Source: a virus. Taken from it: DNA of 30,204 nucleotides. The notes under the pieces are model-generated. The model was not told the origin of the DNA and ran no database searches. It saw only the letters and a list, made by a program, of their open reading frames with translations. The position numbers and the translations under genes were made by a program. Shown here piece after piece: positions 1 to 30,204 of this stretch. Each line of letters opens with the position of its first letter. The stretch's first letter is position 1. The DNA lies in the IMG/VR virus record IMGVR_UViG_3300025155_000029, positions 1-30,204 of that record; one strand, given 5' to 3'.

Positions 1-62
1 TGGACAAAGTCGGAGCCTGACTATAGATGTCTCTTACCTTATAAATTTTACTTTGTAATAAT

Positions 63-110
63 GGGTCCCATATTATGATTGGGTCCCATATTTCAATATG
101 GTCCCATATT
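63..110. repeat. Three iteron-like direct repeats
   Basis: Three copies of GGGTCCCATATT lie at 63-74, 81-92 and 100-110 (the last has lost one G). They are spaced 18-19 bp apart, close to two helical turns. Each copy contains a near-palindrome, TGGGTCCCA. They sit directly downstream of the stop codon of the minus-strand zinc-finger gene. Repeats on one face of the helix suggest a protein-binding array such as an operator or replication-type iterons, but nothing here identifies the protein. Confidence 0.6.
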
Positions 111-298
111 CATGAATTATCATCATAAATTATATTCCTCGTTAATTTCCATCGAAAGTAAGCAGTTCTACATTTAGATTTACAGAATTTTTGCCAAGCT
201 CGTTTAGGTATAAAGGATTTACTACAAAATTTACAGTTCTTTTTTATAATATTATTTTCTGATATAATAATTTTTTGGTCTTTATCGGGGCTATCCAT
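110..298 (-). CDS. Small FCS-like zinc-finger protein
   Basis: Encodes 62 residues. Cysteines at 22, 25, 39 and 43 form a C-x2-C...FC-x3-C arrangement, the pattern of FCS/MYM-like zinc-binding fingers found in many tiny phage proteins. The basic region after the last Cys (CRTAYFRWK) suggests nucleic-acid contact. I chose the ATG at 296-298 because an AAGGAAGG ribosome site lies about seven bases upstream; the reading frame continues upstream to an ATG at 364 but without such a site and across the promoter. It is the only minus-strand gene at this end. It has its own promoter and a palindrome in its leader. A regulatory role is inference; the substrate is unknown. Confidence 0.7.
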   Translation of the reverse strand: MDSPDKDQKIIISENNIIKKNCKFCSKSFIPKRAWQKFCKSKCRTAYFRWKLTRNIIYDDNS

Positions 299-313
299 TC
301 GGCTACCTTCCTT

Positions 314-351
314 GGGAAATGCGTTCCTAGGGCCAGTGTAACGCATTTCCC
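314..351. promoter_or_regulatory. Perfect 12-bp-arm palindrome, candidate operator
   Basis: GGGAAATGCGTT (314-325) and AACGCATTTCCC (340-351) are exact reverse complements around a 14-base centre, CCTAGGGCCAGTGT. One arm lies in the -35/-10 spacer of the minus-strand promoter, next to its -10 box. The other arm lies just downstream of the expected start site. This is the geometry of a repressor operator. In RNA it would form a hairpin in the leader of the minus-strand gene. Outer partial complementarity (305-311 with 369-375) and a competing small hairpin (355-359 with 366-370) also exist. Confidence 0.6.
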
Positions 352-364
352 GCCTCCCTGTCAA
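335..364 (-). promoter_or_regulatory. sigma70-type promoter, minus strand
   Basis: On the minus strand TTGACA (plus 359-364) is a perfect -35 box. It is followed by an 18-base spacer and TACACT (plus 335-340), which matches the -10 consensus at four of six positions. It points toward the small zinc-finger gene ending at 110. I found no comparably good promoter on the plus strand for the rightward operon in 371-433. Confidence 0.6.
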
Positions 365-433
365 GAGGGAAGGTGTGGTAAAATGGGGCTGCGGTCAAGG
401 TGTATAAAAAGACTAATACTATGGAAATTAATC

Positions 434-670
434 ATGGAAATTAACAGACGAACATTCTTTTTTCTAGGATTTAGTTTTGCTATTGCCAAGACTTTAGGAA
501 TGTATGTTCCGTCTGAAGAAATTTATAAACCTTCAAAAGCACAAATTGATTTCATGAAATCTTATGAACCTAGAATTCTTTATGGTGGTAATGTTGGTGG
601 TGGAAAGACAATTAGAATGTTGGAATTAAACAATGCCATTAGGAATAGTATCAGATTCGGATTTCAATAA
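434..670 (+). pseudogene. Truncated terminase large-subunit N-terminus
   Basis: Encodes 78 residues ending in a stop at 668-670. Residues 30-62 align by eye with residues 16-48 of the full-length TerL encoded at 2772: a Y/W-(K/R)P-(S/N)-(K/R)-x-Q-x-(D/E)-F block, then LYGG followed by a Walker A motif GGNVGGGKT (residues 51-59). Everything after the P-loop helix is missing, including Walker B and the nuclease. The N-terminus has an RRTFFFLG run followed by a hydrophobic stretch, superficially like a Tat signal. The start codon sits in a 11-bp direct repeat (ATGGAAATTAA at 421 and 434) and has only a weak ribosome site. Its end overlaps the terS-like gene by 38 bases. It is probably a recombination remnant; a short expressed ATP-binding peptide is the alternative. 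Confidence 0.6.
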
Positions 671-1208: not shown

Positions 1209-1209
1209 A

Positions 1210-1283: not shown

Positions 1284-1297
1284 AACAGGAGTAGACA

Positions 1298-1531: not shown

Positions 1532-1533
1532 TC

Positions 1534-2241: not shown

Positions 2242-2772
2242 ATGAGAAAACTATTTTTAGTTTTAATTCTGTCAATTCCTTCAACTACATTTGCACAGGA
2301 TTATCGTGTAAATGAAGAACGAAATCTTGCTTGGGATTATACTCAAGCTAATATTGATGTTAGTCAAACAATTAGATTTGAAGTTAGATTAGATTCAGGA
2401 ATTTTCTTTGATACAGAATTACCTGTGTTACCACCTGGAACTTATGAATGGCCTTTACCAGAATTAACAGTAGGTGGTCATGTAGTAAGGGTGCGCGCTT
2501 GTAATTCTCTTGAGTGTGGTTCTTCTGCTATGTTAAGTTTTAATGTATTAGCAATGCTTCCACCTCCCCCTACTAATCTTCGTATTCCTCCAGGCCAAGT
2601 AGTTTCAATTCCTAAAGCAATTCAATTAGCTGAATCATATTCTTTTGTTAGACGATTACATGGATTAAGTGAACCTGAAATGCGTATCTTGGCAAATAAT
2701 TATCAGGGTGATTTTACTTATGGTAACATAATGAATTATCTTGATGAGAGCTTTACAAGATTAGGTCGATAG
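2242..2772 (+). CDS. Secreted protein with a fibronectin-III-like domain
   Basis: Encodes 176 residues from ATG 2242; a TTG nine bases upstream is less likely. Residues 1-18 are a good Sec signal peptide (MRK, hydrophobic core, STTFA before QD). Residues 19-105 are beta-rich with a pattern like a fibronectin type III or related Ig-like fold (IRFEVRLDSG ... PPGTYEWPLP ... VRVRACNSLECGSS). A proline-rich linker PPPPTNLRIPPG then leads to a helical C-terminal part. The stop overlaps the GTG start of TerL (TAGTG). Signal-bearing Ig-like proteins are unusual inside a terminase module. It may be exported to the host envelope during infection; the function is unknown. Confidence 0.65.
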   Translation: MRKLFLVLILSIPSTTFAQDYRVNEERNLAWDYTQANIDVSQTIRFEVRLDSGIFFDTELPVLPPGTYEWPLPELTVGGHVVRVRACNSLECGSSAMLSFNVLAMLPPPPTNLRIPPGQVVSIPKAIQLAESYSFVRRLHGLSEPEMRILANNYQGDFTYGNIMNYLDESFTRLGR

Positions 2773-4472
2773 TGGACTTTCTTATACCTAAAAATCTATC
2801 AGGAGATAGACTTGAATGGCGTCCTAACAGGAAACAAGCTGAGTTTCTTTCTATTCCCTGGAGTATTAAAGAAGGATTATATGGAGGTGGAGCAGGTTCA
2901 GGTAAGTCTGACGTATTATTAATGTATGGAATTGTTCATCGCTTGCATGAGAATCCTAGATTCAAGCAAGTAGTAATGCGAAGAACAATGCCAGAACTGA
3001 AAAGGGAGATTGTTCCACGTTCTAGAGACATCTATAGAAAATTTGGTGCTACCTTCAACGGAACTGATATGTGCTGGACATTTCCGCGTCCAGACCAATA
3101 TGGTTCAGGAATGAAAAATGAAGGAGCAATGATTTTCTTAGGTCATTGTGAGGAAGAAAAAAATGTTCACATCTACGATACAATGGAAATCTCTTTATAT
3201 ACACCTGATGAAATAACTTCATTAACTGAATATATTTATTTATATATAGCATTTGAAAGAAACCGCGCACCTAAAGACTCTGGTTTGCCCAGTATTACCA
3301 GAGCAGCAGGAATGCCATCAGGAGTTGGACATACATTTACCAAGAAACGCTTTGTTGACCCCTACAAAGCTGGTGGAAAAATTATTGTAGGACGCGGTGG
3401 GAACAAGAGAATTTATATACATGCGACTCTAGAAGATAATAAAGATTACATCGACCCTAGTTATTCTCAATCATTAGATGGTAGACCTGAAGCTGAAAGA
3501 AAAGCTAAGAAGTTTGGTGATTGGGACGCGTATCTTGGATTAGTATTTGATGAATTTAGAGATAAGAAATATCCTGATGAACCTGAAAATGCATTACATG
3601 TAATTGAACCTCATGAAATACCTAATTGGTGGCCTAAAATAATTATAGGTGATTGGGGATACCGTGCATTATGTTATTTGGGATTTTATGCTATTACACC
3701 AAATAAAAGAATAATTCAATATAAAGAATTAGCTTGGTTAAAAACTAAAATTAGTGAATGGGGACCAATAGCGAAACAATTAATTGATAAAGAACAACCA
3801 CGTATCATTAAATTTTGTCAATCAGCTAAACAAGATAGAGGACAAGAACAGACAATTCAGCAACAAATTTCAGAAGCATTAGGAAGAAATATTGAACTAA
3901 CAGTAAATTCAGCAGGTTCTAGAGTAGCTGGTAAGATGTTACTCCATGAGAATTTAAGATGGAAACCAAAACCAATTATTCCTCCTGAATTATTACCTAA
4001 TTTTGATAATGATTATTCTGAATGGGTTTACAGGAATAAAGGTGAGGATGAATACAAAGCATACTTAAGTTTATTTAAATTACCTGAACCCGAAACTAAT
4101 ATTCCTAAATTATTAATATTCAGATGTAATGATGAAAGAAGTCATGAAGGTCATCCTAATTGTTGTCCATTAGTTATTGAAGCAATTAAAGCATGTAATT
4201 ATCCTGAAAAAACTATTGATGGAAAACCAATTGAAGATGTAGCTGAATTCGATGGTGATGACCCATATGATACTACAAGATATGCATTAGATGCTGCTGA
4301 AAGATTTTTTGGAGATGCTAAAACTGAATTTAAGAAAATTCAGGAACAAGAACGAATGTTAGAAATTCTTCGTAGAACTAATGATTGGACCGCGTTCTAT
4401 AGGAATATGAGTAGAATTGAATCTGACCAGAAATTACCTCAATCAATTCGTCGGTATGCTAGGAGACATTGA
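2772..4472 (+). CDS. terL: Terminase large subunit
   Basis: Encodes 566 residues, normal TerL length. The ATPase half has Walker A GGGAGSGKS at residues 38-46, a Walker B-like ISLYTPDE at 140-147 (acidic pair D146/E147) and a TRAAGMPSG coupling-type segment near 177-184. The linker GDWDAYLGLVFDEF (249-262) is a typical terminase landmark. The nuclease half begins IIIGDWGYR with D294 as the likely first metal ligand, and ends near DDPYDTTRYALDAAERFFG. It translocates DNA into the prohead and cuts concatemers. The start is GTG overlapping the previous TAG. It ends in a TGATG overlap with the next gene. A second, truncated N-terminal TerL copy lies at 434-670. Confidence 0.95.
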   Translation: MDFLIPKNLSGDRLEWRPNRKQAEFLSIPWSIKEGLYGGGAGSGKSDVLLMYGIVHRLHENPRFKQVVMRRTMPELKREIVPRSRDIYRKFGATFNGTDMCWTFPRPDQYGSGMKNEGAMIFLGHCEEEKNVHIYDTMEISLYTPDEITSLTEYIYLYIAFERNRAPKDSGLPSITRAAGMPSGVGHTFTKKRFVDPYKAGGKIIVGRGGNKRIYIHATLEDNKDYIDPSYSQSLDGRPEAERKAKKFGDWDAYLGLVFDEFRDKKYPDEPENALHVIEPHEIPNWWPKIIIGDWGYRALCYLGFYAITPNKRIIQYKELAWLKTKISEWGPIAKQLIDKEQPRIIKFCQSAKQDRGQEQTIQQQISEALGRNIELTVNSAGSRVAGKMLLHENLRWKPKPIIPPELLPNFDNDYSEWVYRNKGEDEYKAYLSLFKLPEPETNIPKLLIFRCNDERSHEGHPNCCPLVIEAIKACNYPEKTIDGKPIEDVAEFDGDDPYDTTRYALDAAERFFGDAKTEFKKIQEQERMLEILRRTNDWTAFYRNMSRIESDQKLPQSIRRYARRH

Positions 4473-5668: not shown

Positions 5669-5832
5669 TGCCAGCCAAAAGTGCTAAACAGTATAAATTC
5701 ATGCAAATGATGGCCCACTCACCAGAGAAAAAGAGAAAAACTGATGCAGGACCATCACCAGAAGTAGCTAAGAAGTTTATTAATGAAACTTCACCTGAAA
5801 AGAGAAAGATGTTTGCTAAAGGAAAGAAATGA
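5668..5832 (+). CDS. Small MPAKS-type phage protein
   Basis: Encodes 54 residues, strongly basic, beginning MPAKSAKQYKFMQMMAHSPE and containing SPEVAKKFINETSPEKRKMF. The MPAKS..Q..FM...A opening and SPEVAKKF repeat-like block match a very common class of tiny phage proteins (resembling DUF3008-type proteins) often next to portal genes. Function unknown; a helical nucleic-acid or virion-associated role is plausible. It starts in a TAATG overlap and ends in an ATGA overlap with portal, so it is clearly part of the operon. Confidence 0.75.
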   Translation: MPAKSAKQYKFMQMMAHSPEKKRKTDAGPSPEVAKKFINETSPEKRKMFAKGKK

Positions 5833-8093
5833 AATTTAAAGTAGGCAAACATACTTTAACTGAAGAAGACATCGCTGCATTGAAATCGGTTGTAGACCAT
5901 TTCGATAAAGAAGAATTTGCTGTTCGTGAACGTCAAATTATTACTTGGCGTAAATTAAAATTAATGTGGGAAAATTTACATAATACTTACTATGATTCTG
6001 TGGCGCATGATTGGAGATTACCACCATCGACTGATGATTCAAATACTGACCAAGAATTTTATGATAAGCCAATCAATATATTTCGAGCTTATCTTGAATC
6101 AATTATTGCTGCTCTTTCTGCTACAGTTCCTGCAATTAAATGTTATCCAGATGATGCAGAGAATCCATTAGACTTAGCTACTGCTAAAGCTGGAGATAAA
6201 ATTGCACAACTAATTTTCAGGCATAATGATTCTCCTTTACTTTGGGTTCACGCGCTTTACATCTATTGCACTGAAGGATTAGTCGCGTGCTATAACTATT
6301 CTAAATCAGATGAAAAGTATGGAACTTATAAAGAAAATAAATATGAGGATTTTGAAGAAAATCATGAAGTAACTTCATGTCCTACATGTGGATATGAATT
6401 TGAAGATAATGTAGTTACTGAACCATCTATCCCAGAAATGGGACCAGAAATGGAAATGTGTCCTGAATGTCAAACTGGTGTGATACCTAATGTTGAACAG
6501 AGAACTGAAGTAATCACTAGATTAGTTGGAATTACTGAACATCCTAAATCACGTCAATGTATGGAAGCGTATGGTGGACTTTACGTTAAGGTTCCTAACT
6601 ACGCGAGAAAACAAGCTGATTGTCCATATTTAATTTTTAGTTATGAAACTAATTATGTTTTAGCGCGTGAAAGATATTCAGATGATAAAGAATTAAGAGA
6701 TATGATTGGTCCTAGTGGACCTAAAGAAGAATATGAAGCATGGGCACGACTTTCATCTCAGTATGATGGAGATGAACCAGTTGATACAGTTACATGTAGA
6801 AATGCATGGTTAAGACCAGCCGCGTTCCAAGTTCTTGATAATGAACGATGTGATAGATTAAAGAAAATATTTACTAATGGTGCTAAGGTAGTTCTAATTA
6901 ATGATACGTTTTGTGAAGCTGAGAATGAATCTCTAGATGACCATTGGACTCTTACTCATAATCCATTATCTGATTATATTCATCATGACCCATTAGGTTT
7001 ACTGTTAGTTTCTGTTCAAGAAATTCTCAGTGATTTAATTTCATTGATTCTTCAAACCATTGAACATGGTATACCTCAAACATTCGCTGACCCTGAAGTT
7101 CTTAATTTTAATGCATATGGTCAAACAGAAGTTACACCCGGTTCCATTTCACCTGCCAAACCAAAATCAGGCAGGCAAATGAGTGAATCATTCTATGAGG
7201 TTAAAACTGCTACTTTATCTCAAGAAGTTTTACCATTCGTTAATTTAATTCAATCACTAGGTCAAGTTACATCAGGTTCACTACCTTCATTATTTGGTGG
7301 TCAGATGGAAGGTAGTAAAACAGCGTCTGAATATTCAATGTCACGTAGTCAGGCGCTTCAGCGTCTACAGACTATTTGGAAAGTCTTTACTTTTTGGTGG
7401 AAGAATATCTTTGGAAAAGTTATTCCTCAATACATCAAAGAAGTTAAAGATGATGAACGCGATGTTGAACGCGATAACTTAGGGAATTTTGTTAATGTTT
7501 TTATTAGAAAATCTGAATTAGAAGGAAAAATTGGAAAAATTGAACTTGAAGCTAATGAAAATCTACCAATGTCTTGGCAGCAGGTTCGAGATATTCTAAT
7601 GAAATTAATGGAAATGCAGAATCCTATTTTCTTGCAAGCTATGATGGCTCCTGAGAATCTACCTATTATTCGTGAAGCACTTGGATTAAATGATTTCTAT
7701 ATTCCTGGTGAAGAAGACATGGAGAAGCAGTATGAAGAAACTCAATTACTGCTTAACTCCGAACCTATACCTAGTGGTGTAGATGAAATGGGACAACCTA
7801 CTGAAGCTCCATCAGTAGATATTGACCCTGAATTTGACAATCATCAGATTCATTTTGAATTAGTTCGTAAATGGGTAGTTAGTAGTGCAGGAAGATTAGC
7901 TAAAAATGAAAATCCTCGTGGTTATATGAATGTATTATTGCATGGTCGTGAACATAAAATGATTATTGACCAACAAGCAATGATGCAACAACAGCAGGCT
8001 GAAATCCAGCGCGGTGCTCCTGGTAGAAAGCCTAATGAATTAAAACAAGAAGCACCCATTACTGGAGATAGCAATGTTCAAACTACTCAATAG
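5829..8093 (+). CDS. Portal protein, P22-like, with zinc-ribbon insertion
   Basis: Encodes 754 residues, the size of P22-type portals. The N-terminal part (residues 20-160: YDSVAHDWRLPPS ... YDKPINIFRAYLESIIAALSATVP) and the central and C-terminal helical regions (SGSLPSLFGGQMEGSKTASEYSMSRSQALQRLQ) fit a ring-forming portal. An insertion at about 165-225 carries two CxxC pairs, C184/C187 and C211/C214, a classic zinc-ribbon spacing. The last 40 residues are Gln-rich and disordered. The portal forms the dodecameric DNA gate and assembly nucleus with scaffold. The start overlaps the previous stop (ATGA); the end overlaps the scaffold start by 20 bases. Confidence 0.88.
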   Translation: MKFKVGKHTLTEEDIAALKSVVDHFDKEEFAVRERQIITWRKLKLMWENLHNTYYDSVAHDWRLPPSTDDSNTDQEFYDKPINIFRAYLESIIAALSATVPAIKCYPDDAENPLDLATAKAGDKIAQLIFRHNDSPLLWVHALYIYCTEGLVACYNYSKSDEKYGTYKENKYEDFEENHEVTSCPTCGYEFEDNVVTEPSIPEMGPEMEMCPECQTGVIPNVEQRTEVITRLVGITEHPKSRQCMEAYGGLYVKVPNYARKQADCPYLIFSYETNYVLARERYSDDKELRDMIGPSGPKEEYEAWARLSSQYDGDEPVDTVTCRNAWLRPAAFQVLDNERCDRLKKIFTNGAKVVLINDTFCEAENESLDDHWTLTHNPLSDYIHHDPLGLLLVSVQEILSDLISLILQTIEHGIPQTFADPEVLNFNAYGQTEVTPGSISPAKPKSGRQMSESFYEVKTATLSQEVLPFVNLIQSLGQVTSGSLPSLFGGQMEGSKTASEYSMSRSQALQRLQTIWKVFTFWWKNIFGKVIPQYIKEVKDDERDVERDNLGNFVNVFIRKSELEGKIGKIELEANENLPMSWQQVRDILMKLMEMQNPIFLQAMMAPENLPIIREALGLNDFYIPGEEDMEKQYEETQLLLNSEPIPSGVDEMGQPTEAPSVDIDPEFDNHQIHFELVRKWVVSSAGRLAKNENPRGYMNVLLHGREHKMIIDQQAMMQQQQAEIQRGAPGRKPNELKQEAPITGDSNVQTTQ

Positions 8094-9387
8094 TATTTTA
8101 ACTTTATTCTATAATCCTCCTGATACCGAAATAGGTGGAGTTCCTGAAAGTAAAGAATTATCTGAACAAGAAACTTTTGAATTATTAGATACTGATGAAA
8201 AAACTGAGGAAGAAACTTTAGAATTAGAACCTAAAAAAGAATCTAAGAAGGATGATGAAGATGATGAAACTAAAGAAAAAGATGATGATGAAGAAAAAGA
8301 AGAAGATGAATTAAAGGAAATTGAGGAGGAATTAGAAGAAACTCCTGAAGAAAAACTGGAACTAATGACTCCAGTTCGGCGTAAAGAAATTCTTGCTAAG
8401 TTTCCTAGATTATTCAAAGAATTTCCTTATCTTGAAAGTGCTTATTATCGAGAGCAGGAATTTACTCAATTATTTCCAAGTATCGGTGACGCTAAAGATG
8501 CAGTGAAGAAAGTAGAAACACTTGATAAATTTGAACAAGATTTACTTTCTGGAAATACTGAAAATGTATTGAAACTCGTTAAACAACATGATGAGAATAC
8601 ATTTAATTCTATTGTAGATAATTATCTTAGCACTTTAGCTAAAGTTGATAAGGACGCGCATCTTCATGTAGTGGGAAATATTATTAAAGATACTATTGTT
8701 ACGATGATTCAGGAGGCGCGTGCTAGTGATAATGATGCACTGAAAAATGCTGCTGCGGTTCTGAATCAGTTTGTTTTTGGTAGTTCTACATTTACTCCTA
8801 AACAATTACTAGCTAAGGAAGATACTAGAGAAAATCCAAAGGAAAAAGAATTAAAGGAACGTGAACAGAAAATTCTAAAAGAATCATTTGACCGAAGTAA
8901 AACTGAAATTAATACTAAAATTGATACTGTATTGAAAGGAACTATTGAAAAGTATATTGACCCTAAAGAATCAATGACTGATTATGTTAGACGTAATGCG
9001 ATTAGAGAAGCAATGGAAACTACTCAATCCATTATTAGTCGTGATAGTCGTTTCCGTGGTTTACTTGATAAACTTTGGGAACGCGCGTTCAAGGAAAACT
9101 TTTCGACGGAATCAACAGAAAGAATTCGACAAGCCTATCTTTCAAGAGCCAAAACAGTTATGCCTTCTGTCATTAAAAAGGCCAGAAATGAGGCTCTTAA
9201 AGGTTTAGGCAAGCGCGTGAAGGAAGATGAAGAAGAAGTAGAAACAGAAACACCGAAAAAAGGTCCAGTTCCTCCGGGTCGCTCCACAACCCCTGATAAT
9301 CGTGGATTTAAGGGAACCACGGATAAGGAGAAAGCAACTAAAATTCCATCGGGCATGAGTGCATTGGACTATCTCATGCAAGATTAG
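8074..9387 (+). CDS. Scaffolding protein
   Basis: Encodes 437 residues. Residues 35-110 are extremely acidic and low in complexity (long Glu/Asp/Lys runs). The rest is helical with repeated Lys/Glu heptads, and there are no cysteines. Size, charge pattern and position between portal and coat gene are those of head scaffolds, which fill the prohead and leave before or during packaging. The end (GMSALDYLMQD) could be the coat-binding tail. The ATG at 8074 lies inside the portal gene; its ribosome site would be GGAGAT upstream. A protease-scaffold fusion is unlikely, as no protease motif is visible. Confidence 0.82.
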   Translation: MFKLLNSILTLFYNPPDTEIGGVPESKELSEQETFELLDTDEKTEEETLELEPKKESKKDDEDDETKEKDDDEEKEEDELKEIEEELEETPEEKLELMTPVRRKEILAKFPRLFKEFPYLESAYYREQEFTQLFPSIGDAKDAVKKVETLDKFEQDLLSGNTENVLKLVKQHDENTFNSIVDNYLSTLAKVDKDAHLHVVGNIIKDTIVTMIQEARASDNDALKNAAAVLNQFVFGSSTFTPKQLLAKEDTRENPKEKELKEREQKILKESFDRSKTEINTKIDTVLKGTIEKYIDPKESMTDYVRRNAIREAMETTQSIISRDSRFRGLLDKLWERAFKENFSTESTERIRQAYLSRAKTVMPSVIKKARNEALKGLGKRVKEDEEEVETETPKKGPVPPGRSTTPDNRGFKGTTDKEKATKIPSGMSALDYLMQD

Positions 9388-9397
9388 GAGAGTAACA

Positions 9398-10651
9398 GTG
9401 GCAGTTGTGGAGTCTCAAGTAGCAGCGTTAGAACTTGAGAGAGTTCTACCGAAAGTTCGCGTGCTATTTGAACGAGATGATAAGTTCTACGCAACAATCG
9501 CTAAACGACCTGCGGAGAAAGTATCAAATCGTCAAATGCGCATTCCACTGGAGTTACGTCCTGGAGGTAATTTCCAGTATTTTAATCCTGATGGTGGTGA
9601 CTTAGGCCGTGGTGGTGGTCCCACTTGGGATAAGGCTGTAGTTAGTGCTGTATTCATGTCAGAAGCAATGGAATACACTAAACTAACTCAGTGGTCAACT
9701 GATGATGCTCGTAAATCAGTTCAGAATGCAGTTAGACGTTTAACTGCTTCTGCATTGAATGAAATTCGTCGTCAGTTAGATGCTCAGTTGATGCAGCCTG
9801 GTAATGGTGTAATTGGCACTATTAGTGCTGTATCTACTTCAGCAGGTTCCGATACCCTCACATTAGGAACTGATGGTTTCGGAGCGCGTCTCATTAGGTT
9901 TGGTCAGCAAGTCCAAATCTTTGATACAACACTAGCCACTGACCGTGGTTCTACCGTGGTCACTGGTTATGATGTTGCAAATAAACAAGTGACAGTAACT
10001 CCTTCAGTAGCAGGAACAGTTGCTACTGATTTGATTGTTACTGAAGGACTTTCATCTCCTACATCGCTTCCGGCGTTGTTTGGAGTTCCTTATCATCACT
10101 CAAATGCTTCTACTGGAACTTGGTTAGGATTCAGTAGAGTAACTACTCCTGAAATTCGTTCTAATCGTGTGAATGCTGGTGGTGCTGGTCTTACACTACC
10201 ACTTCCGCGATTAGCAATGAATCGCATTGGTGACAGAATTGGCGATGATGCCATGTTTAAACCTGTCGCCTGGATGCATCCTGCACAACAGCAGGCATAC
10301 GAGGAAATTGGTCAGCTTGTTACCACATTAAACCAAATGCCCGGTAAACAGGGTGAGTTGGATATGTATTTTGGTGGCAAGATGAGTATGGCTGGTGCTC
10401 CAGTTAAACGTCATTTTAACTGGGACAGAACCCGTATTGACTTCATTGTGGAGCAAGTATGGGGACGTTCAGAGATTCTTCCTATTGGTTTCTACAAAAC
10501 TGATGGAAGGCATATCTTTGAGATTCGTGGAGCTTCAGGTGGTGTTACTACATCTGAAATCTTCTACATGGTGGTAGGGATGCAGACATTTGTCAATAAC
10601 CCTGCTGCTACTTCTTACATTGATAATCTTGCTGTTCCAGCAGGATACTAA
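9398..10651 (+). CDS. Major capsid protein
   Basis: Encodes 417 residues from GTG 9398, preceded by TAGGAG; the open frame upstream lacks any site and would add 13 odd residues. The helical N-terminus (VESQVAALELERVLPKVRVLFERDDKFYATIAKR) is followed by an E-loop-like region and a beta-rich central insertion around residues 140-225. The C-terminus (FNWDRTRIDFIVEQVWGRSEI) fits an HK97-fold coat protein of the podovirus type. It follows scaffold by ten bases and is followed by two decoration-type genes. It is the most conserved-looking and presumably most highly expressed gene here. Confidence 0.88.
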   Translation: MAVVESQVAALELERVLPKVRVLFERDDKFYATIAKRPAEKVSNRQMRIPLELRPGGNFQYFNPDGGDLGRGGGPTWDKAVVSAVFMSEAMEYTKLTQWSTDDARKSVQNAVRRLTASALNEIRRQLDAQLMQPGNGVIGTISAVSTSAGSDTLTLGTDGFGARLIRFGQQVQIFDTTLATDRGSTVVTGYDVANKQVTVTPSVAGTVATDLIVTEGLSSPTSLPALFGVPYHHSNASTGTWLGFSRVTTPEIRSNRVNAGGAGLTLPLPRLAMNRIGDRIGDDAMFKPVAWMHPAQQQAYEEIGQLVTTLNQMPGKQGELDMYFGGKMSMAGAPVKRHFNWDRTRIDFIVEQVWGRSEILPIGFYKTDGRHIFEIRGASGGVTTSEIFYMVVGMQTFVNNPAATSYIDNLAVPAGY

Positions 10652-10962: not shown

Positions 10963-10979
10963 AGGAGTTGAAAATAACA

Positions 10980-11288
10980 ATGTCAGATTTACTTCATCAA
11001 AATCTGGCAACAGTTCAGAGTCAGGCACAACCAACTCCTAAAACTGTTGCCTCGGCTACCACAATTGCTCCAGAAACATTCATTACGTTTGTTACTGGAA
11101 CAACTAACGTAGCTCAAATCACTCCACCTGTCACCGGACAACATATGCTGTGTTTAATTTTCACAGATGGTGCTCCTGGTGACCTTACAACTGCAGGAAA
11201 TATCTTGGTAGGGACAACTACAGTAGTACAGAACGCTCCTGTTTTACTGTTCTATGACCCTACTCAAGCAAAGTATTATCCAAAGTAA
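10980..11288 (+). CDS. Capsid decoration-type protein, copy 2
   Basis: Encodes 102 residues from ATG 10980; an upstream TTG at 10968 overlaps the AAAGGAG site and is rejected. After a 25-residue polar N-terminus it repeats the domain of copy 1 (ASATTIAPETFITFVTGTTN, then LTTAGNILVGTTTVV, then KYYPK). The extra N-terminal segment may bind a different site on the shell. A GC-rich hairpin with a T-stretch starts 10 bases after the stop, so this may be the last gene of the head-shell transcript. Confidence 0.7.
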   Translation: MSDLLHQNLATVQSQAQPTPKTVASATTIAPETFITFVTGTTNVAQITPPVTGQHMLCLIFTDGAPGDLTTAGNILVGTTTVVQNAPVLLFYDPTQAKYYPK

Positions 11289-11298
11289 ACTGGATGAA

Positions 11299-11335
11299 AG
11301 ATGGTGGGTTGAAATATACCCACCATCTAGTTTTA
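11299..11335 (+). terminator. Candidate intrinsic terminator after decoration genes
   Basis: AGATGGTGGGT (11299-11309) pairs perfectly with ACCCACCATCT (11318-11328), giving an 11-bp stem with an 8-base loop TGAAATAT. AGTTTTAAT follows. The T-tract has only four bases, so termination may be partial. It lies between the stop at 11288 and the preferred methyltransferase start at 11338, which fits a level drop between abundant head proteins and a modification cassette. Confidence 0.5.
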
Positions 11336-11337
11336 AT

Positions 11338-11883
11338 ATGAATCTAGAACGAGCATTAGAAATTGATGGTTGGATGGCACCAGATGAATTACAATGGTTA
11401 GCTGAAACTGCACATAAGTCAAAAACTATAGTTGAATTTGGTTGTTATAAAGGTCGCTCAACTCGTGCTATGGCAGATAATTTACCTATTTTTGGTAGAA
11501 TATATGCTGTAGACCCTTGGAATGGAACTTACTATAGTGATAATGGAAATGTTCATGAAGGAATTAATACTGATGTTTATGATGAATTTGAGAATAATTT
11601 GAGAGACCATATCATTGCTGATAGAGTGGTTCCATTTAAAAGTTATTCTAAGAATTTTTTAAGAAATATTAAAGCTGATTTTGTTTTTATAGATGGAGAC
11701 CATAGATTTTTAGAAGTTTTAAATGATATTAAAATTGGATTAGGTTTATTGAAAGATGAAGGAATTATAGCAGGACATGATTTTATTCATACTGCTGATT
11801 GGCCTGGAGTAAGAAAAGCAGTTGAACAAATTTTTGGTAAGGATATTAAACTAGTTAACAGTATTTGGTGGAGACAAGAATGA
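11338..11883 (+). CDS. Class I SAM-dependent methyltransferase
   Basis: Encodes 181 residues from ATG 11338. The frame stays open to an ATG at 11254, but that start overlaps the previous gene and spans the terminator-like hairpin, and the family usually begins with the ...IDGWM.P.ELQWL segment seen at residues 9-21. Motif I is VEFGCYKGRST (32-42), the acidic ribose-binding strand is YAVDPW (56-61), and a later strand reads FVFIDGDH. This is the Methyltransf_24-like group often found with glycosyltransferases. Probable substrate is a sugar or surface glycan; DNA methylation motifs (DPPY/NPPY) are absent. The ATGA overlap with the glycosyltransferase couples the two genes. Confidence 0.85.
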   Translation: MNLERALEIDGWMAPDELQWLAETAHKSKTIVEFGCYKGRSTRAMADNLPIFGRIYAVDPWNGTYYSDNGNVHEGINTDVYDEFENNLRDHIIADRVVPFKSYSKNFLRNIKADFVFIDGDHRFLEVLNDIKIGLGLLKDEGIIAGHDFIHTADWPGVRKAVEQIFGKDIKLVNSIWWRQE

Positions 11884-12563
11884 AAGTATTAATCGGAGTT
11901 CCTACTGCGGAATATGCGCGTCGAGCAGATTTTTATGATTATTTCAATATGCTTGAAAAACCTGAAGGAACTATTTGTACTTTTTGTCATGGTCAGTCGC
12001 CTGCACGCAATCGAAATCTAATCATTCAGCAGGCATTAGACCATAATTGCACTCATGTCTTTTTTCTAGATGATGATGTTGCATTTAAACCTGATATTCT
12101 AATGAAATTATTAGACTGGAATGTAAACATGGTAACTGGTTTATATTTAATGCGTAATTATCCTCATCGTCCTATTCTATTTGATTATGCAAATAATAAA
12201 GGTGAATGTCATCATGTTACTCTAGAACGACAAACTGGATTAATTGAAGTAGTAAATACTGGACTAGGATGTGTTCTAATTAATACCGAAGTATTCAAGG
12301 CAATGGAAAAACCTTGGATTACATTAGGTGAACTTGAACGTGACCATTGGTGTGATGACATTAGTTTTTTTAATCGAGCGCGTGTCGCTGGATTTAAATT
12401 ATATTGTGATTTTTCTATTCTAGTAGGTCATTTCGCATCTGTTACAGTTTGGCCTAACATGATTGATGGAAATTGGATGACAACTTATGATAGTCATGGT
12501 AAAGGTCAAGTAACATTTCCTCAATATAAAGAGGAAAAGTATCATGAAACTGTTCAAAAATAG
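11880..12563 (+). CDS. Glycosyltransferase, GT-A type
   Basis: Encodes 227 residues starting at the ATGA overlap (11880). The GT-A fold is suggested by MKVLIGVPT at the start, ARNRNLIIQQAL (nucleotide-sugar region), and a metal-binding HVFFLDDDVAF at about 60-68 (DDD 64-66). Later acidic residues in HWCDDISFFNRARVAGF could include the catalytic base. The size is that of a minimal transferase domain, with no membrane segment. Together with the methyltransferase it probably glycosylates and methylates a virion surface protein or a host glycan. The acceptor is unknown; the adjacent decoration proteins are attractive candidates. Confidence 0.82.
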   Translation: MKVLIGVPTAEYARRADFYDYFNMLEKPEGTICTFCHGQSPARNRNLIIQQALDHNCTHVFFLDDDVAFKPDILMKLLDWNVNMVTGLYLMRNYPHRPILFDYANNKGECHHVTLERQTGLIEVVNTGLGCVLINTEVFKAMEKPWITLGELERDHWCDDISFFNRARVAGFKLYCDFSILVGHFASVTVWPNMIDGNWMTTYDSHGKGQVTFPQYKEEKYHETVQK

Positions 12564-16388: not shown

Positions 16389-17329
16389 TTAATGCTTCTG
16401 GGACGCGCACGGTATCACCTATTGTAGCTAACGATGCTATTGATGTTCTATCATTAGCATGGGATAATAGGGGTCCGGGTCCACAGACTATCGTATTAAT
16501 TTTTACTGCTCAAGGATTACCACCTAGTAATCCAACTATTACTCTACAAATTTTTCCAACTGGTGCCATTGCTGTAGGAACTGATAGTAGCGGAAATATT
16601 TCAGTATTAAAAACATTAACAAATACTGGTGATGATAAAAATTATAGTGTATCAGGTGGAGGAAATGTAAATCTTGCAGATGGTTTTTGGGATTCACAGT
16701 TACGCGCAATTCTAGCATATAATCCATCTGAAGCTCCAAATGCTGCGGTAACTTTTAATGTTCAAATTGGTGCTTTTGACCCTACAGACCCTGCCGAATT
16801 TACTTTGGACGCAACTTTAAATCCTCCAACTAATGTAGCAGCTACTGAACCAGTATATGACCCTGAATCTGGCCAATTTACTTTTACATTATCATGGGAC
16901 AATAATGAATTATTACCTGTAGTTATTATAACCGAACCTTCTCCTAGTGGTTTTCAGTATGTAGAAGGAAGTTCGCAGTCTCCAGCCGCAACATTTCCTG
17001 AAAGATTTACTAATGAAGAACCTCCTGTATCTACATGGATGTATACTTTTTATTATTATAGTTATACTCCAAGTCGTAGAATTTCACCTGCTTCTAGTGT
17101 ATTAATTGTCAATATTCCAGGTGCTCCAACTCCTGATATTACTATTATAGGAAGTGGAGGAGTTACGTTAGGTGGAATTGCAACAGCAGTTTTCATTGGA
17201 GACCCTTCTGGTATTTATACATTGGAAGAAGGAAAACTACATGATACTATTATCAATAGAGTAGGTGCTACAGTTGAAGAATTAAATTTAGCTATTCCTA
17301 GACCATTTGTTAGAACTGGACCATTTTAA
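16385..17329 (+). CDS. Multi-domain beta-rich structural protein
   Basis: Encodes 314 residues. Residues 1-130 form one beta-sandwich-like unit (SPIVANDAIDVLSLAWDNRGPGPQ...). Residues 145-250 look like a fibronectin III-like domain (NPPTNVAATEPVYDPESGQFTFTLSWD ... YTFYYYSYTPSRRISPASSVLIVNIP). A C-terminal domain follows. Such Ig-like modules decorate tail or fibre proteins and give weak carbohydrate binding. There are no cysteines or signal peptide. TAATG overlap with the next gene. Placement suggests a fibre or tail-adhesin component. Confidence 0.65.
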   Translation: MINASGTRTVSPIVANDAIDVLSLAWDNRGPGPQTIVLIFTAQGLPPSNPTITLQIFPTGAIAVGTDSSGNISVLKTLTNTGDDKNYSVSGGGNVNLADGFWDSQLRAILAYNPSEAPNAAVTFNVQIGAFDPTDPAEFTLDATLNPPTNVAATEPVYDPESGQFTFTLSWDNNELLPVVIITEPSPSGFQYVEGSSQSPAATFPERFTNEEPPVSTWMYTFYYYSYTPSRRISPASSVLIVNIPGAPTPDITIIGSGGVTLGGIATAVFIGDPSGIYTLEEGKLHDTIINRVGATVEELNLAIPRPFVRTGPF

Positions 17330-17601
17330 TGCCTATTATTAAACATTGCACGGGTTTGGATATTCGCGTGCGTGGTTCAGGAAATTTATTGACTAAATTA
17401 ATTAGTTTGGATGATTCGCGGAGTGAAGTTTTAGTTCCATTAGTTATGTCGGCTTTACCTGGAAGAACGAATATTATTAAATCTAATTTCACTGAGGAAA
17501 AAATGTATTTTGAGATTTGGACTGAAGAAATTGATGAAAAATTTGAAATAACTGACATCGTTCCTTTCGTTAAAGCGCGTGCAACTATGTATCCAAGCTA
17601 A
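17329..17601 (+). CDS. Hypothetical 90-residue protein in fibre region
   Basis: Encodes 90 residues (MPIIKHCTGLDIRVRGSGNL at the start). It is a mixed alpha/beta sequence with acidic C-terminal half (EEKMYFEIWTEEIDEKFEITDI). There is no recognised family or motif. It is locked into the operon by TAATG overlaps on both sides and so is almost certainly expressed. It is probably a small virion or fibre-assembly factor by position only. Confidence 0.65.
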   Translation: MPIIKHCTGLDIRVRGSGNLLTKLISLDDSRSEVLVPLVMSALPGRTNIIKSNFTEEKMYFEIWTEEIDEKFEITDIVPFVKARATMYPS

Positions 17602-19393: not shown

Positions 19394-20353
19394 ATGCCAA
19401 ATCTTGAAGACGTTTTATTAAGAGGGACGCGTGCAGCACAGCCACTAGCTACTGCTGTTCCTAGTGGAACTTTATATTTCGTTACAAATGAAAATGTAAC
19501 AGAACAATCTAATGGAAGCGCGTGGGTATCATATTCAGGAGCAGGATTAGGTTCTGCTACTTTTACTGGATTAACTGACACTCCTAGTTCATATACTGGT
19601 CAAGCATCTAAAGCAGTTTCTGTTAAAGCTACTGAAGATGGACTAGAATTTACTACACCCGTCACCGGAGGAATAACCCAATTGACTGGTGATGTAACTG
19701 CTGGACCTGGTTCTGGTAGTCAAATTGCTACTATTCCAAATGCTACTATTACATATGCAAAAATACAAGATATATCAGCAGTATCTAGGTTATTAGGTAG
19801 GGGTAGTGCTGGTGGTGCAGGTGATACTGAAGAAATAACACTAGGTTCTGGTCTAGCTATGACTGGAACTGTATTGTCGTCATCAGGTGGTTCAGGTGAT
19901 TGGACTACAATAAAAACTCAAGTTCTTGACCAAGATGTAGTTAATAGCAGTGTTCTTGTTCCATCAACAGACCTTATATTGCCTGTATTAGCAGGTGAAG
20001 CTTGGTTAGTTGAATTATTAATTTTATATTCTGCAACTGATGTTACCCGTGATTTTTTATGGGATGTTGATGTAACTGCTGGAACAATGCAAATTATTGG
20101 TTTTTATAATGCATTTGGAACTGCTGATGGTGCTAGTCTTTCTGGATTTGTTGGTGCTGCTGTTACTAGTATTACAGATATAGGAATAGGGGTAGCAGTT
20201 TCTCATGGTATAAGAGTATTCAGAGCTGTAATGACAGTAGTATTTTCAGCAAATGCTGATTTTCGTTTTCGTTTTGCAGAATTTAGTCCATCGGCTTCTA
20301 CAGAAGCTCGTTTAAGAGCTGGTTCTATTTTACGTGGTAAAAAGATTGTATGA
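19394..20353 (+). CDS. Tail fibre protein, second anchored copy
   Basis: Encodes 319 residues. The N-terminal 48 residues repeat the anchor of the 18005 gene (RGTRAAQPLATAVPSGTLYF, SNGSAWVSYSG). The middle has typical fibre segments: FTGLTDTPSSYTGQASKAVSV and ITQLTGDVTAGPGSGSQIATI followed by ISAVSRLLGRGSAGGAGDTEEI, widespread in phage fibres. The C-terminal 140 residues form a beta-rich tip. It probably provides an alternative receptor-binding specificity on the same attachment point. The stop overlaps the endolysin start (ATGA). Confidence 0.78.
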   Translation: MPNLEDVLLRGTRAAQPLATAVPSGTLYFVTNENVTEQSNGSAWVSYSGAGLGSATFTGLTDTPSSYTGQASKAVSVKATEDGLEFTTPVTGGITQLTGDVTAGPGSGSQIATIPNATITYAKIQDISAVSRLLGRGSAGGAGDTEEITLGSGLAMTGTVLSSSGGSGDWTTIKTQVLDQDVVNSSVLVPSTDLILPVLAGEAWLVELLILYSATDVTRDFLWDVDVTAGTMQIIGFYNAFGTADGASLSGFVGAAVTSITDIGIGVAVSHGIRVFRAVMTVVFSANADFRFRFAEFSPSASTEARLRAGSILRGKKIV

Positions 20354-20697
20354 CATTAAGAGAAAAACAATCTATATTCGTTCGATTAGTAGCCAAGTTA
20401 ATTAATTTTGCTTATATGCAAGATTATGAATTAACTTTTGGTGAAACATATCGTAGTCCTGAAGAATCATTAAGACTATATAATTTAGGTAAGGGTATTA
20501 AAAATTCTTTACATACACAACGATTAGCAATTGATTTGAATTTGTTTAAAAGTGGAAAATATTTAGTATCTACTGAAGACCATAGACTACTGGGTGAATA
20601 TTGGGAATCATTATCTACTAATGAATATGAATGTGTTTGGGGTGGTAGATTTAGTGATGGAAATCACTATAGTATTAAGCATGGCAATAGGAGATAA
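20350..20697 (+). CDS. Endolysin, M15-type L-Ala-D-Glu peptidase
   Basis: Encodes 115 residues. The zinc site of the M15 family (VanY / Ply500-like) is visible: SLHTQRLAIDLNLF with H55 and D62 spaced by six residues, and SDGNHYS with D103 and H106. The usual closing tripeptide HFE/HFQ is HYS here. FGETYRSPEE resembles the family's substrate strand (G.tyRs.eeq). It cleaves peptidoglycan stem peptides at lysis and has no signal peptide, so it depends on a holin; candidates are at 1764 and 2064. It overlaps the fibre stop by ATGA, so it is a late gene. Confidence 0.85.
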   Translation: MTLREKQSIFVRLVAKLINFAYMQDYELTFGETYRSPEESLRLYNLGKGIKNSLHTQRLAIDLNLFKSGKYLVSTEDHRLLGEYWESLSTNEYECVWGGRFSDGNHYSIKHGNRR

Positions 20698-27134: not shown

Positions 27135-27350
27135 TTATTCTACCTCAGAATTAGGGTCATTAAATACTACTGCTTTAATAGCCCACATTGCAGTTTGTTC
27201 ATTATTAGTTAAAGCGATTGATTGATGACGAGATTGTGGACAAATCTCTTTAATCAATCTTTCACCCTCACTAAAATGTTCTCTAAGTTTATTAATTTTC
27301 TCTAGTCCCTCTGATGATGGTTTGTGATATGCGTAAGGTTTGTCAATCAT
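27135..27350 (-). CDS. Acb2/Tad1-like cyclic-nucleotide sponge candidate
   Basis: Encodes 71 residues from the ATG at 27350, with GGGAG six bases upstream; the longer frame to 27434 has no such site and overlaps the next gene. The pattern SSEGLEKINKLREHFSEGERLI, then CPQSRHQSIALTNNEQ.AMWAIKA, fits the two-helix Acb2/Tad1 hairpin family (long helix, cP.SR...A.t..E.a..wa.kAi). Known members sequester cyclic nucleotide or cADPR-type signals of CBASS and Thoeris immunity. The usual LE before the last helix is NE here. Assignment is by pattern recognition only; binding specificity is unknown. It is two bases downstream of the cold-shock gene. Confidence 0.72.
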   Translation of the reverse strand: MIDKPYAYHKPSSEGLEKINKLREHFSEGERLIKEICPQSRHQSIALTNNEQTAMWAIKAVVFNDPNSEVE

Positions 27351-27351
27351 T

Positions 27352-27582
27352 TTAACTCCCAATATTTGGAAAATCTGCCCTTCTAACGTTAGATGCACGC
27401 GGTCCTTTTCTACTATTTTCTTCCTCAAATTCAACTGGAACTAAATTCTTTTCTTTCATATCAACTTCTAAATCTTTCCAATGTCCACTGAAATCACTCC
27501 TGTGAAAGAAATAGTCCACTTTACCACAGCGGATAAAACCGAATCCTTTTTCCGCGACTAATCTAATTACTTCACCTTTCAT
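27352..27582 (-). CDS. Cold-shock-domain protein
   Basis: Encodes 76 residues. It has the cold-shock fold signature: KGEVIRLVAEKGFGFIRCG with RNP1-like KGFGFI at residues 11-16, DYFFHRSD (RNP2-like) at about 23-30, and PVEFEEENSRKGPRASNVRR near the end. It binds single-stranded RNA or DNA. The start is placed at ATG 27582 with GAGGAG eleven bases upstream; a GTG at 27594 abuts that site and is unlikely. The gene follows the 74-residue protein by a few bases. It could act as RNA chaperone in early infection. Confidence 0.88.
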   Translation of the reverse strand: MKGEVIRLVAEKGFGFIRCGKVDYFFHRSDFSGHWKDLEVDMKEKNLVPVEFEEENSRKGPRASNVRRADFPNIGS

Positions 27583-28170: not shown

Positions 28171-28376
28171 CATTTAAAAATAACAAAGAACATCATTTCA
28201 CCTGTTGGTTTACCATTTTCATCCTTAATTTCAAATAATGTTTTTCCTTCAATATCATATATAATCATTTCTCTATGATGAATTCTTTTTGCTTCATCTG
28301 AGGTTAATTTTACAGCATAATAAGGATATGGACTTCCAATATTATATTCATTTTCATCATCTTGGATAATAGTCAT
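28170..28376 (-). CDS. Hypothetical 68-residue protein
   Basis: Encodes 68 residues (MTIIQDDENEYNIGSPYPYY at the start). It has a helix (LTSDEAKRIHHREMI) and a strand pair with a Gly/Pro turn (FEIKDENGKPTGEMMFFVIFK). The ATG overlaps the ATPase stop as ATGA and uses the repeated AGGGGAAAC site. No motif recognised. Confidence 0.68.
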   Translation of the reverse strand: MTIIQDDENEYNIGSPYPYYAVKLTSDEAKRIHHREMIIYDIEGKTLFEIKDENGKPTGEMMFFVIFK

Positions 28377-29602
28377 TTCTGTTTCCCCTGTAAGTATCGT
28401 TTCATTTCCTCAAATACAGCATCAGGCATTTCATAAATAACCTGATTACCCATTGATTTAATTTTAATTTGGCCACCTGCTTCAAGTGAATTAGCACAAT
28501 CAACCCATTCATTCAGATTACCATGCATCCAGTATTTTTTGAGTAATTGTGCTTGACTGATTGAATGCGTATCGCGTATCAATAATTCCTGAATCAGAAT
28601 AGCTTTTCTAGTTGCATTACTAGTTTCTTTGTTTCCTACTTTATTCTGTGTAACCTGTCTAATTCCTGATATTAATTTTTCACCAATTTCAATTGCGAGT
28701 TTTAAAGATTCTAAATCTATTTCTAATTTAGGTTCTTTAGCTAAAGATAATAACATCGCCACTTTTAGAACACTATCTCCAAAACGATTCAATGTTCCTG
28801 TTTCATCTTTTACTTCTGATGCCTTAACTGTTTTTCTAAAATTAACATACCAATCATCATAATATTTTCCTACTTCAGTTAATTCATTATTTTCATCAGA
28901 TAATTCTTTAAATGGTCCATTTAATTTAATTAGTTCTTTTAGATACCTAACTAATTCATCTTCATCTACTACAATACCTCGCCTAGCTAATGAATTAATT
29001 ATTGATTCCTCTTTTTCATAAACAATAAAAGTGCGCGCGAAAAATCCACCCTTTAAATCTTTCATCTCAAAAAATTCATCGGAATGTGCTGCATTAATTC
29101 CACCGAATAATGTAACAGTAGGGTCTTTAAGTTTAAATGTTTCCATTTTTAATAATGAACTATATTCACCTTCCCAATAATTTCTATCATATAAATCAGT
29201 TAGAATGGTTAATGCAGCAGGGTCAGTAACCAATGATGAACTTAATTCCGATGCATTAATATAGCCTACTGATTTAACATTTACGCGGCCACCTGGCTCG
29301 GTTTTTGCAGTCCCTAGTTCCTTTAGGATTCCCTGAATTGATGAACGACCTATAATGAGGCGCGTGTTATTAACTTTCTTAACTAATCGTTTAGACAAAT
29401 TTATAGGTGGTCCTTTCTTCAGACCTGAATCAGCATGAAGAATACAATATATATTTGGATAGAGATTATATTTACCGCCTCTACTAATCCATATATTGTC
29501 CTTTACTACAGCTGATATGGTTACTAAACCTGACCACATCCAAAATGATGTAGGAGACTCCATATCTGAATGCATGTTGATTAGCTTGTCCAGCCATGAC
29601 AT
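28373..29602 (-). CDS. DUF3987-like ATPase
   Basis: Encodes 409 residues with the pattern of DUF3987 proteins (YfjI-like, frequently in phage replication regions). It opens with MSWLDKLINMHSDMESPTSFWMW. The P-loop region YCILHADSGLKKGPPINLSK (residues 52-71) has Gly-Leu-Lys-Lys-Gly-Pro-Pro, lacking the usual GK(S/T). Later blocks are GYINASELSSSLV, DLYDRNYWEGEYSS, TVTLFGGINAAHSDEFF and GGFFARTFIVYE, all usual in the family. A helical C-terminal half ends in a winged-helix-like part (LLKKYWMHGNLNEWVDCANSLEAGGQIKI). Likely a helicase-like or primase-associated ATPase in DNA replication; activity with the changed P-loop is uncertain. AGGGG lies seven bases before the ATG. Confidence 0.78.
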   Translation of the reverse strand: MSWLDKLINMHSDMESPTSFWMWSGLVTISAVVKDNIWISRGGKYNLYPNIYCILHADSGLKKGPPINLSKRLVKKVNNTRLIIGRSSIQGILKELGTAKTEPGGRVNVKSVGYINASELSSSLVTDPAALTILTDLYDRNYWEGEYSSLLKMETFKLKDPTVTLFGGINAAHSDEFFEMKDLKGGFFARTFIVYEKEESIINSLARRGIVVDEDELVRYLKELIKLNGPFKELSDENNELTEVGKYYDDWYVNFRKTVKASEVKDETGTLNRFGDSVLKVAMLLSLAKEPKLEIDLESLKLAIEIGEKLISGIRQVTQNKVGNKETSNATRKAILIQELLIRDTHSISQAQLLKKYWMHGNLNEWVDCANSLEAGGQIKIKSMGNQVIYEMPDAVFEEMKRYLQGKQK

Positions 29603-29610
29603 TACTACCC

Positions 29611-29787
29611 CTATCTTCTGTGAAATTCCTTTAAATCTCTTAGAGTTTTTACCATGACATTTTCTATTTTATCCTTAATTTCCTCTTTAAAATCACACAT
29701 CAAAGAATGCGCGTGCAATGATTTTGAATCTAGTCGAATTTCAAAATCATATTTTTCATCTAATAGAATTCGTTTGAGTATAATCAT
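29611..29787 (-). CDS. Small hypothetical 58-residue protein
   Basis: Encodes 58 residues (MIILKRILLDEKYDFEIRLD at the start), with strand-rich N-terminus and a charged helix (FKEEIKDKIENVMVKTLRDLKEF) at the end. GAGGAA lies about five bases before the ATG. It lies between the 71-residue gene and the ATPase in the same direction with small gaps. No family recognised. Confidence 0.68.
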   Translation of the reverse strand: MIILKRILLDEKYDFEIRLDSKSLHAHSLMCDFKEEIKDKIENVMVKTLRDLKEFHRR

Positions 29788-29796
29788 TTTGATTCC

Positions 29797-30012
29797 TCAG
29801 AATGGAATGTCATCGTTGACGTGTGTATTATAATCCTGTGATTTTCTTTTTTCTTCAAATCTCTGTTCTTCAAATCTCTGAATATCTTTTATTAACAAAG
29901 GAATTTTAGAGCAAATTTCAATTAGAGAATCTCCTTCTACTGAATGAACTGGACCAGCTTGTAGAGGATTATTTATATTTCTCTCAATTATTTGAAGTAA
30001 GTATTTTCTCAT
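29797..30012 (-). CDS. Hypothetical 71-residue protein
   Basis: Encodes 71 residues. It is helical (MRKYLLQIIERNINN ... LIEICSKIPLLIKDIQRFEEQRFEEKRK), with a repeated RFEE(Q/K)R pattern and an acidic tail ending DDIPF. The acidic, aromatic-ended tail resembles the C-terminal tip of single-stranded DNA-binding proteins, though nothing else here matches that family. GGGGAAG precedes the ATG; it overlaps the upstream gene by ATGA. Confidence 0.66.
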   Translation of the reverse strand: MRKYLLQIIERNINNPLQAGPVHSVEGDSLIEICSKIPLLIKDIQRFEEQRFEEKRKSQDYNTHVNDDIPF

Positions 30013-30203
30013 GATTCAACTTCCCCATACGCCTCAAGAACATTAGCAGTAATTCTCATTACTTCACAAAATTTCTTATTATATATAGGTAAATTATTAG
30101 GAATAAGTATTACTCCCATATGAACCATACTAGCAACGTGAGATTGTGACAATACCATAATTAATTCAATTAACCACATTGAAGCAGCATTTCTATCTTC
30201 TTG
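30009..30203 (-). CDS. Partial gene cut by the right edge
   Basis: The last 64 residues of a minus-strand gene whose start lies beyond the window. The visible part is helical (AASMWLIELIMVLSQSHVASMVHMGVILIP, then KFCEVMRITANVLEAYGEVES). The stop overlaps the next gene's ATG (ATGA), which supports the frame. No motif identified; the missing N-terminus prevents assignment. Confidence 0.65.
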   Translation of the reverse strand, partial: QEDRNAASMWLIELIMVLSQSHVASMVHMGVILIPNNLPIYNKKFCEVMRITANVLEAYGEVES

Positions 30204-30204
30204 A

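Follow-up and report, generated by a model that had tools for sequence, protein, structure and literature searches.

Independent avoidance of GATC and GTAC within one family of uncultivated phages, probably as an escape from restriction

Elimination of the sites at which restriction enzymes cut is already known among viruses: across the nearly 4,000 viral genomes of one survey, site avoidance was complete or nearly so in about one tenth, was typical of non-temperate phages and, in the case of GATC (type IIM), appeared as under-representation in 46 of 46 phages whose hosts encode enzymes (PMC6286503). GATC and GTAC are both recognition sites of known enzymes (PMC6286503, PMC10273834). Two palindromic 4-mers, CTAG and GATC, stand at zero in seven isolates of the HF1 group of haloviruses, where their loss has been ascribed to host systems (PMC7230728); phiX174 and enterobacteriophages have zero GATC, there tied to mismatch repair (PMC5014478); and GTAC is avoided in Helicobacter and Campylobacter, with a GTAC-specific restriction enzyme of the PabI family proposed as the cause (PMC10273834). 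Here we describe an added example with an unusually clear internal contrast: IMG/VR virus record IMGVR_UViG_3300025155_000029, analysed over its entire 30,204 bases and referred to below as the window, is devoid of GATC and nearly devoid of GTAC, and its relatives show every combination of presence and absence of the two words. The window resembles the HF1 group in having two vanishing palindromic 4-mers; those haloviruses differ in being archaeal myoviruses with CTAG as the second word, some of them with methylases, and a mixture of zero and normal counts is reported there only for the proviruses (PMC7230728). For phiX174 and the enterobacteriophages the passages cited describe no loss of GTAC (PMC5014478), and the avoidance in Helicobacter and Campylobacter concerns bacterial chromosomes, whereas the window is a phage (PMC10273834). 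Phages and hosts alike were known in the survey (PMC6286503); here a single family displays all two-word combinations among close relatives. A search of titles and abstract openings, with subscription papers mostly outside its reach, found no description of a two-state phage family of this kind.

The initial annotation of the window had proposed that 30 kb of sequence contain no GATC as a result of strong counter-selection. GATC is indeed absent from both strands, compared with 98 copies expected under independence, 87 under a maximal-order Markov model, 105 under a first-order Markov model, 103.7 ± 8.7 in 100 dinucleotide shuffles and 86.1 ± 6.2 (minimum 67, z −13.9) when synonymous codons were shuffled 500 times over 27,339 coding bases with every protein and the codon usage held fixed; zero thus stands against 86–105 across five nulls, and the related word GATG is common, as had been noted (194 copies). 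Neither a near-expected count nor an equal loss of many 4-mers, the two outcomes that had been named as refuting the proposal, was found: when the palindromic 4-mers were counted against Markov expectation only GTAC proved comparably depleted, and the next-lowest words were TCGA (0.68 of expectation) and CATG (0.80). The depletion of GTAC had been overlooked. Only two copies occur where 71.7 are expected under the Markov model and 80.3 ± 6.5 under the synonymous null (z −12.1), one at 11226–11229 in the open reading frame (ORF) 10968–11288 and the other at 11977–11980 in ORF 11865–12563, for which relatives exist in 6 of the 20 related records that are full or near-full. One of the two survivors falls inside a small accessory cassette at 11254–12563.

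Codon choice is the means by which the words have been lost. By the code table, GATC and GTAC can be removed in every frame with the protein unchanged, and the window bears the mark of such removal in codon contexts that could complete one of them: aspartate is encoded by GAC in 60 of 60 cases before C, compared with 49 of 423 in other contexts; glycine before TC is never GGA (0/35, versus 280/650 elsewhere); isoleucine after G is never ATC (0/46, versus 71/588); tyrosine after G is never TAC (0/33, versus 42/260); and valine before C is GTA once in 87 cases, versus 206 of 442 in other contexts.

Relatives were collected by means of the major capsid protein (9359–10651, plus strand; phrog_14242, E 2.2e-07), whose aligned relatives start at about 9398 and which matched them at 68–83% identity among the matches listed. 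Two scans confirmed 193 and 272 stretches with capsid relatives, the best 80 being listed each time, and the listed contigs are metagenomic as read from their numbers. From 192 loci we assembled 115 non-redundant IMG/VR records, the window included, and scored each word as the ratio of observed to first-order Markov expected counts wherever at least 15 sites were expected, which leaves out 1 of the 115 records for GATC and 11 for GTAC. The distributions are two-state in character. GATC has a ratio below 0.1 in 42 of 114 records, none lies at 0.1–0.2, one lies at 0.2–0.3 and the remainder are higher; for GTAC the corresponding numbers are 29 of 104, none, six and the remainder. For the remaining 14 palindromic 4-mers, no measurable record among the 115 has a ratio below 0.1. 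The two words are lost independently of each other: among the 104 records in which both are measurable, both are missing from 25, GATC only from 12, GTAC only from 3 and neither from 57, the remaining 7 being intermediate with one word at a ratio of 0.1–0.3, and the two losses are strongly associated (p 3.5e-11 by Fisher's test, which ignores descent). Each combination has a clear representative: the near-complete G013 has 0 of 208 expected GATC and 0 of 118 expected GTAC; the near-complete G026 has 275 of 264 and 140 of 149; G058 has 0 of 176 GATC and 58 of 116 GTAC; and G069 (28.9 kb) has 68 of 146 GATC and 0 of 66 GTAC. G007 (L134–L137) is larger, at 62.5 kb versus 44–49 kb for other near-complete members, and still has 0 of 266 expected GATC. 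Lacking and bearing records also occur side by side. Metagenome 3300031999 yielded both L025 (GATC 0 observed of 76 expected, GTAC 0/54) and L270 (46/47 and 23/24), and metagenome 3300017605 both L020 (GATC 1/204, GTAC 7/118) and L256 (44/82 and 57/36).

The fate of individual sites was followed in close pairs, which were drawn from the most similar long alignments and not at random, and which share members and so are not independent. On passing from a GATC-bearing to a GATC-lacking record, homologous GATC sites were kept in 0 of 11 cases (L006 to L004), 0 of 10 (L015 to L056), 0 of 19 (L015 to L036) and 0 of 13 (L009 to L036), while the 22 control words, which share the composition of GATC, were kept at 39–43%. 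Homologous GTAC sites fared alike: 0 of 8 were kept from L021 to L014 (87.4% identity; controls 67%), 1 of 8 from L021 to L016 (48%), 0 of 12 from L036 to L020 (35%) and 1 of 16 from L023 to L068 (32%). Among 95 changed sites, 69 had been altered by a single base and 58 with no amino-acid change; the most frequent replacement of GATC was GACC (25 of 53). Taken together, the synonymous null, the codon contexts, the two-state relatives and the homologous losses provide good support for strong counter-selection on both words.

How often the state has changed was estimated on a capsid tree of 82 rows, 65 of them different. The GATC state requires at least 13 changes (81 rows; shuffled labels give a mean of 26.4 and a minimum of 20) and the GTAC state at least 9 (72 rows; mean 20.3, minimum 13); presence or absence is inherited, with frequent changes. 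We compared 82 gene families between 17 GATC-lacking and 19 GATC-bearing records, in counts that ignore descent. The family of the protein encoded directly 3′ of the nozzle gene (15993–16388, plus strand; no assigned function) occurred in 11 of the 17 lacking records and in none of the 19 bearing ones, a family of 956-residue proteins in 10 and 0, and that of the M15-like protein (20350–20697) in 8 and 0; one family with no assigned function showed the opposite pattern, with 0 of 17 and 9 of 19. None of the 82 families occurred in every lacking and no bearing record, and those that track the lacking state belong to the tail region or are M15-like. When FastTree trees of 22 widespread genes were compared, the fewest GATC state changes (3) were found for the nozzle gene and for 17329–17601, versus 5 for the capsid gene, 6 for the terminase gene and 7 for ORF 5829–8093. 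Such a link to tail and lysis genes hints at host-dependent pressure, with which it would fit.

GATC and GTAC are not the only words to have been lost in the family. An unbiased scan of 37 records for 1,841 eligible 6-mers, words containing GATC or GTAC being left out, revealed 16 that, in three or more of these records, reach less than 0.1 of the expected count, and 8 of these are palindromes even though only 33 of the eligible words are palindromic (p 5e-11). The palindromes AAGCTT, CAGCTG, CCATGG, CTGCAG, TCTAGA, TGGCCA, TTCGAA and TTTAAA are the type II sites of HindIII, PvuII, NcoI, PstI, XbaI, MscI, BstBI and DraI, respectively. The depleted asymmetric words are CTCTTC, GAAGAC, GAGACC, CACTGC, CAGTGC, CCAGGG, CCCAGC and CCCAGG, the first four of which correspond to EarI, BbsI, BsaI and BtsI (type II or IIS); we know of no enzyme for the other four. 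CTCTTC was found at 0–3 copies, with 15–35 expected, in 13 of 35 measurable joined records (for example G008, G026, G066 and G017), and GAAGAC is likewise lost in 10 of 33 measurable joined records. These two asymmetric words are lost much as the palindromes are.

The methyltransferase families searched for, which could protect the DNA, are absent. In the window record Dam (PF05869) had no match, in agreement with the initial annotation, which had seen no Dam-like methyltransferase; PF02086 and PF01555 were each found in 0 of 50 relatives, and PF00145 in 0 of 49 records, the window included. Pfam scans listed no DNA methyltransferase, nor any recognised type II restriction endonuclease family, in three protein sets (46 from the window, 57 from G013, and 92 of 110 from G058 and G069 together), and no integrase family turned up in these lists, which cover parts of four records. 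In view of the loss of GTAC and of a further set of words, one half of which is palindromic, and of the absence of the methyltransferase families searched for, restriction is the best explanation of the counter-selection. We thus read the pattern as anti-restriction by site elimination, directed against two separate specificities (GATC and GTAC) and gained and lost repeatedly, and we put the probability of this reading at roughly 85%. Of the original proposal, strong counter-selection and restriction as its probable cause have stood, while its single specificity has not: it was incomplete in naming only one, whereas two or more would be at work, each independently of the other. In mechanistic terms, some host bacteria would carry a GATC-cutting enzyme and some, separately, a GTAC-cutting enzyme; each site would lower survival at phage entry, such that selection would strip nearly all sites, mostly by protein-neutral changes, and would keep removing newly arisen ones; and a change of host would turn the pressure on or off. 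The GATC enzyme might be of the MboI type, acting on unmethylated DNA, or of the DpnI type, acting on methylated DNA, both being compatible with the sequence.

On this reading the family amounts to a natural experiment on viral evasion of cutting enzymes. Conclusions about site elimination usually come from individual phages whose hosts are known; here it can be followed in one family of 115 records with repeated switches, whose close pairs allow the speed and the route of site loss and regain to be measured. The missing words could also serve as clues to which restriction enzymes, and hence which hosts, uncultivated phages meet.

Several points weigh against restriction as the cause. (i) No host was found: scanning genome_contigs with the capsid alignment produced 53 pattern matches, none of them a relative, and a terminase scan produced 90 relatives (80 of which were listed), every one distant, with a best identity of 35% and spread over many phyla. 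(ii) No cutting enzyme was found either. (iii) Most genes of the window have no assigned function, which leaves room for a phage-encoded protecting or cutting protein, and the search for the Dam family covered the window only. (iv) GATC-bearing relatives are often mildly depleted, commonly at a ratio of 0.3–0.8, which calls for weaker or past pressure. (v) The link to tail and lysis genes ignores descent, and the gap between gene trees is small (3 versus 5–7 changes). (vi) Mismatch repair could add to the loss of GATC.

The genes with no assigned function could accommodate a second explanation, in which the phage itself makes a nuclease specific for GATC and GTAC, for instance for use against host DNA, and is spared by having no sites. 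Algal viruses do possess enzymes for GATC and GTAC, and nuclease-related matches exist in the family: the two PDDEXK_1 matches come from one protein pool only, that of G058 and G069, records of opposite states, and a homing-endonuclease zinc-loop matched in the 57 proteins of G013. In the same pool there were two ResIII matches alongside two SNF2 helicases, ResIII being a helicase model named for type III restriction. However, the scanned protein sets contain no recognised type II restriction endonuclease family, and not one of the 82 gene families matches the GATC state fully, the state-linked ones being from the tail region or M15-like, such that we consider a nuclease of the phage's own to be a very improbable source of the pattern.

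A third explanation, the principal alternative in the literature, invokes host mismatch repair, in which Dam and MutHLS act at GATC, and a phage that sheds GATC would escape cutting by MutH, or repair. It has a precedent in phiX174, which lacks GATC and whose mutation rate is lowered when sites are restored, although the authors of that report consider it unclear what drives the avoidance of GATC (PMC5014478). With GTAC as a control, the two candidate causes of GATC loss, restriction and mismatch repair, can be told apart here. Mismatch repair leaves the loss of GTAC and the other near-zero words unexplained, and it does not predict the 3 of 104 records that lack GTAC only, such as G069 with 68 GATC and 0 GTAC; as the principal cause we hold it to be very improbable. 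Finally, an effect of composition, codon usage, or library or assembly artefact, which an AT-rich metagenome contig might invite, is refuted by the z values of −13.9 and −12.1 obtained with proteins and codon usage fixed and by the lacking and bearing records that share one metagenome in two cases (3300031999 and 3300017605), and deserves next to no credence.

Site elimination in response to restriction may not be the only way in which these genomes adjust their words. In many members a GC-rich word of 6 or 7 letters, often differing between members, is strongly over-represented on both strands and in all frames: GCGCGT occurs 33 times in the window with 1.3 expected, CGCGCC 92 times in G004 with 2.2 expected and AGCGGC 75 times in G011 with 8 expected, and an iterated GC-rich word is also seen in L003, G035, G058, G016, G055 and others, while some members, such as G014 and G017, have no leading GC-rich word. 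The excess survives the synonymous null (30 versus 2.6 in the window, 81 versus 4.4 in G004 and 64 versus 13.9 in G011). The most over-represented 7-mer of the window is GCGCGTG (17 versus 0.8 expected), which is frequent in relatives too (27 versus 4.0 in G034, 21 versus 2.2 in G001) and is listed as the Chi of Lactococcus lactis and streptococci (PMC5959072). In the sister record L003, which iterates the same word as the window, aligned positions coincide in 3 of 13 cases; for GC-rich hexamers other than this one the figure is 34 of 264. By analogy, the iterated word is possibly Chi-like. We can conceive of a counter-defence written in DNA words, in which the restriction words of the host are deleted and a Chi-like GC-rich word, its positions turning over, is accumulated as a brake on a host helicase-nuclease of the RecBCD, AddAB or RexAB kind; if so, missing and surplus words together would form a readable fingerprint of the host, rewritten with each change of host. 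We regard this combined scheme as speculative and rather unlikely. Several facts oppose a plain Chi interpretation: the words vary among members and most match no listed Chi, their orientation shows no consistent skew, and lactic acid bacteria are not the hosts that so weak a Shine-Dalgarno signal would suggest.

As to the virus itself, we read the window as part of a podovirus-like phage from a large uncultivated family. This assignment rests on ORF 14485–16002 (plus strand), which is predicted to encode a tail nozzle with a T7 gp12-like fold: the structural model has a pLDDT of 84, and its top Foldseek matches, all distant, are podovirus portal-tail chains, T7 included, with query-length template modelling scores of 0.3–0.46. 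The window has no shared end overlap of 20–399 bases, and 5 of 20 joined related records have end overlaps of 123–141 bases. Of the same 20 records, 18 are 44–62 kb long, or the first 40 kb of one 41-kb record; since near-full relatives are longer, at 44–62 kb, the window perhaps represents about two thirds of a genome. Among INPHARED phages there was no near DNA match to window bases 1–25000 and no relative of ORF 5829–8093, and the terminases found there were distant only (364 records, all below 60% identity). Shine-Dalgarno use is weak to moderate in the window and points to no host.

Most genes of the window have no function assigned. Among those that have one are the large terminase (2772–4472, plus strand; phrog_979, E 1.2e-29), the Peptidase_M15-like protein already mentioned, a possible lysis protein (20350–20697, plus strand; PF13539, 22.1 bits with a cut-off of 25), a primase-type protein (Pfam DUF3987), a tRNA-Leu and a cold-shock protein. 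The accessory cassette at 11254–12563 encodes a Methyltransf_24 protein, for which 5 of 20 related records contain a relative, and a glycosyltransferase-like one, for which 6 do. PADLOC returned four matches among the 46 window proteins, the best being a cold-shock model and a weak mads_2. On the minus strand, 27135–27434 encodes a protein of the Acb2/Tad1 type (PF24729, E 1.1e-12), which is present in G013 too and belongs to a family of anti-CBASS and anti-Thoeris sponges. G013 (L098–L100), G058 (L338–L340) and G069 (L361–L362) encode a uracil-DNA glycosylase superfamily protein, a family A polymerase, an SNF2-type helicase and an AAA_24 protein. At the left end of the window, at about 60–115, GGGTCCCATATT or GGTCCCATATT recurs in three near-copies across some 50 bases.

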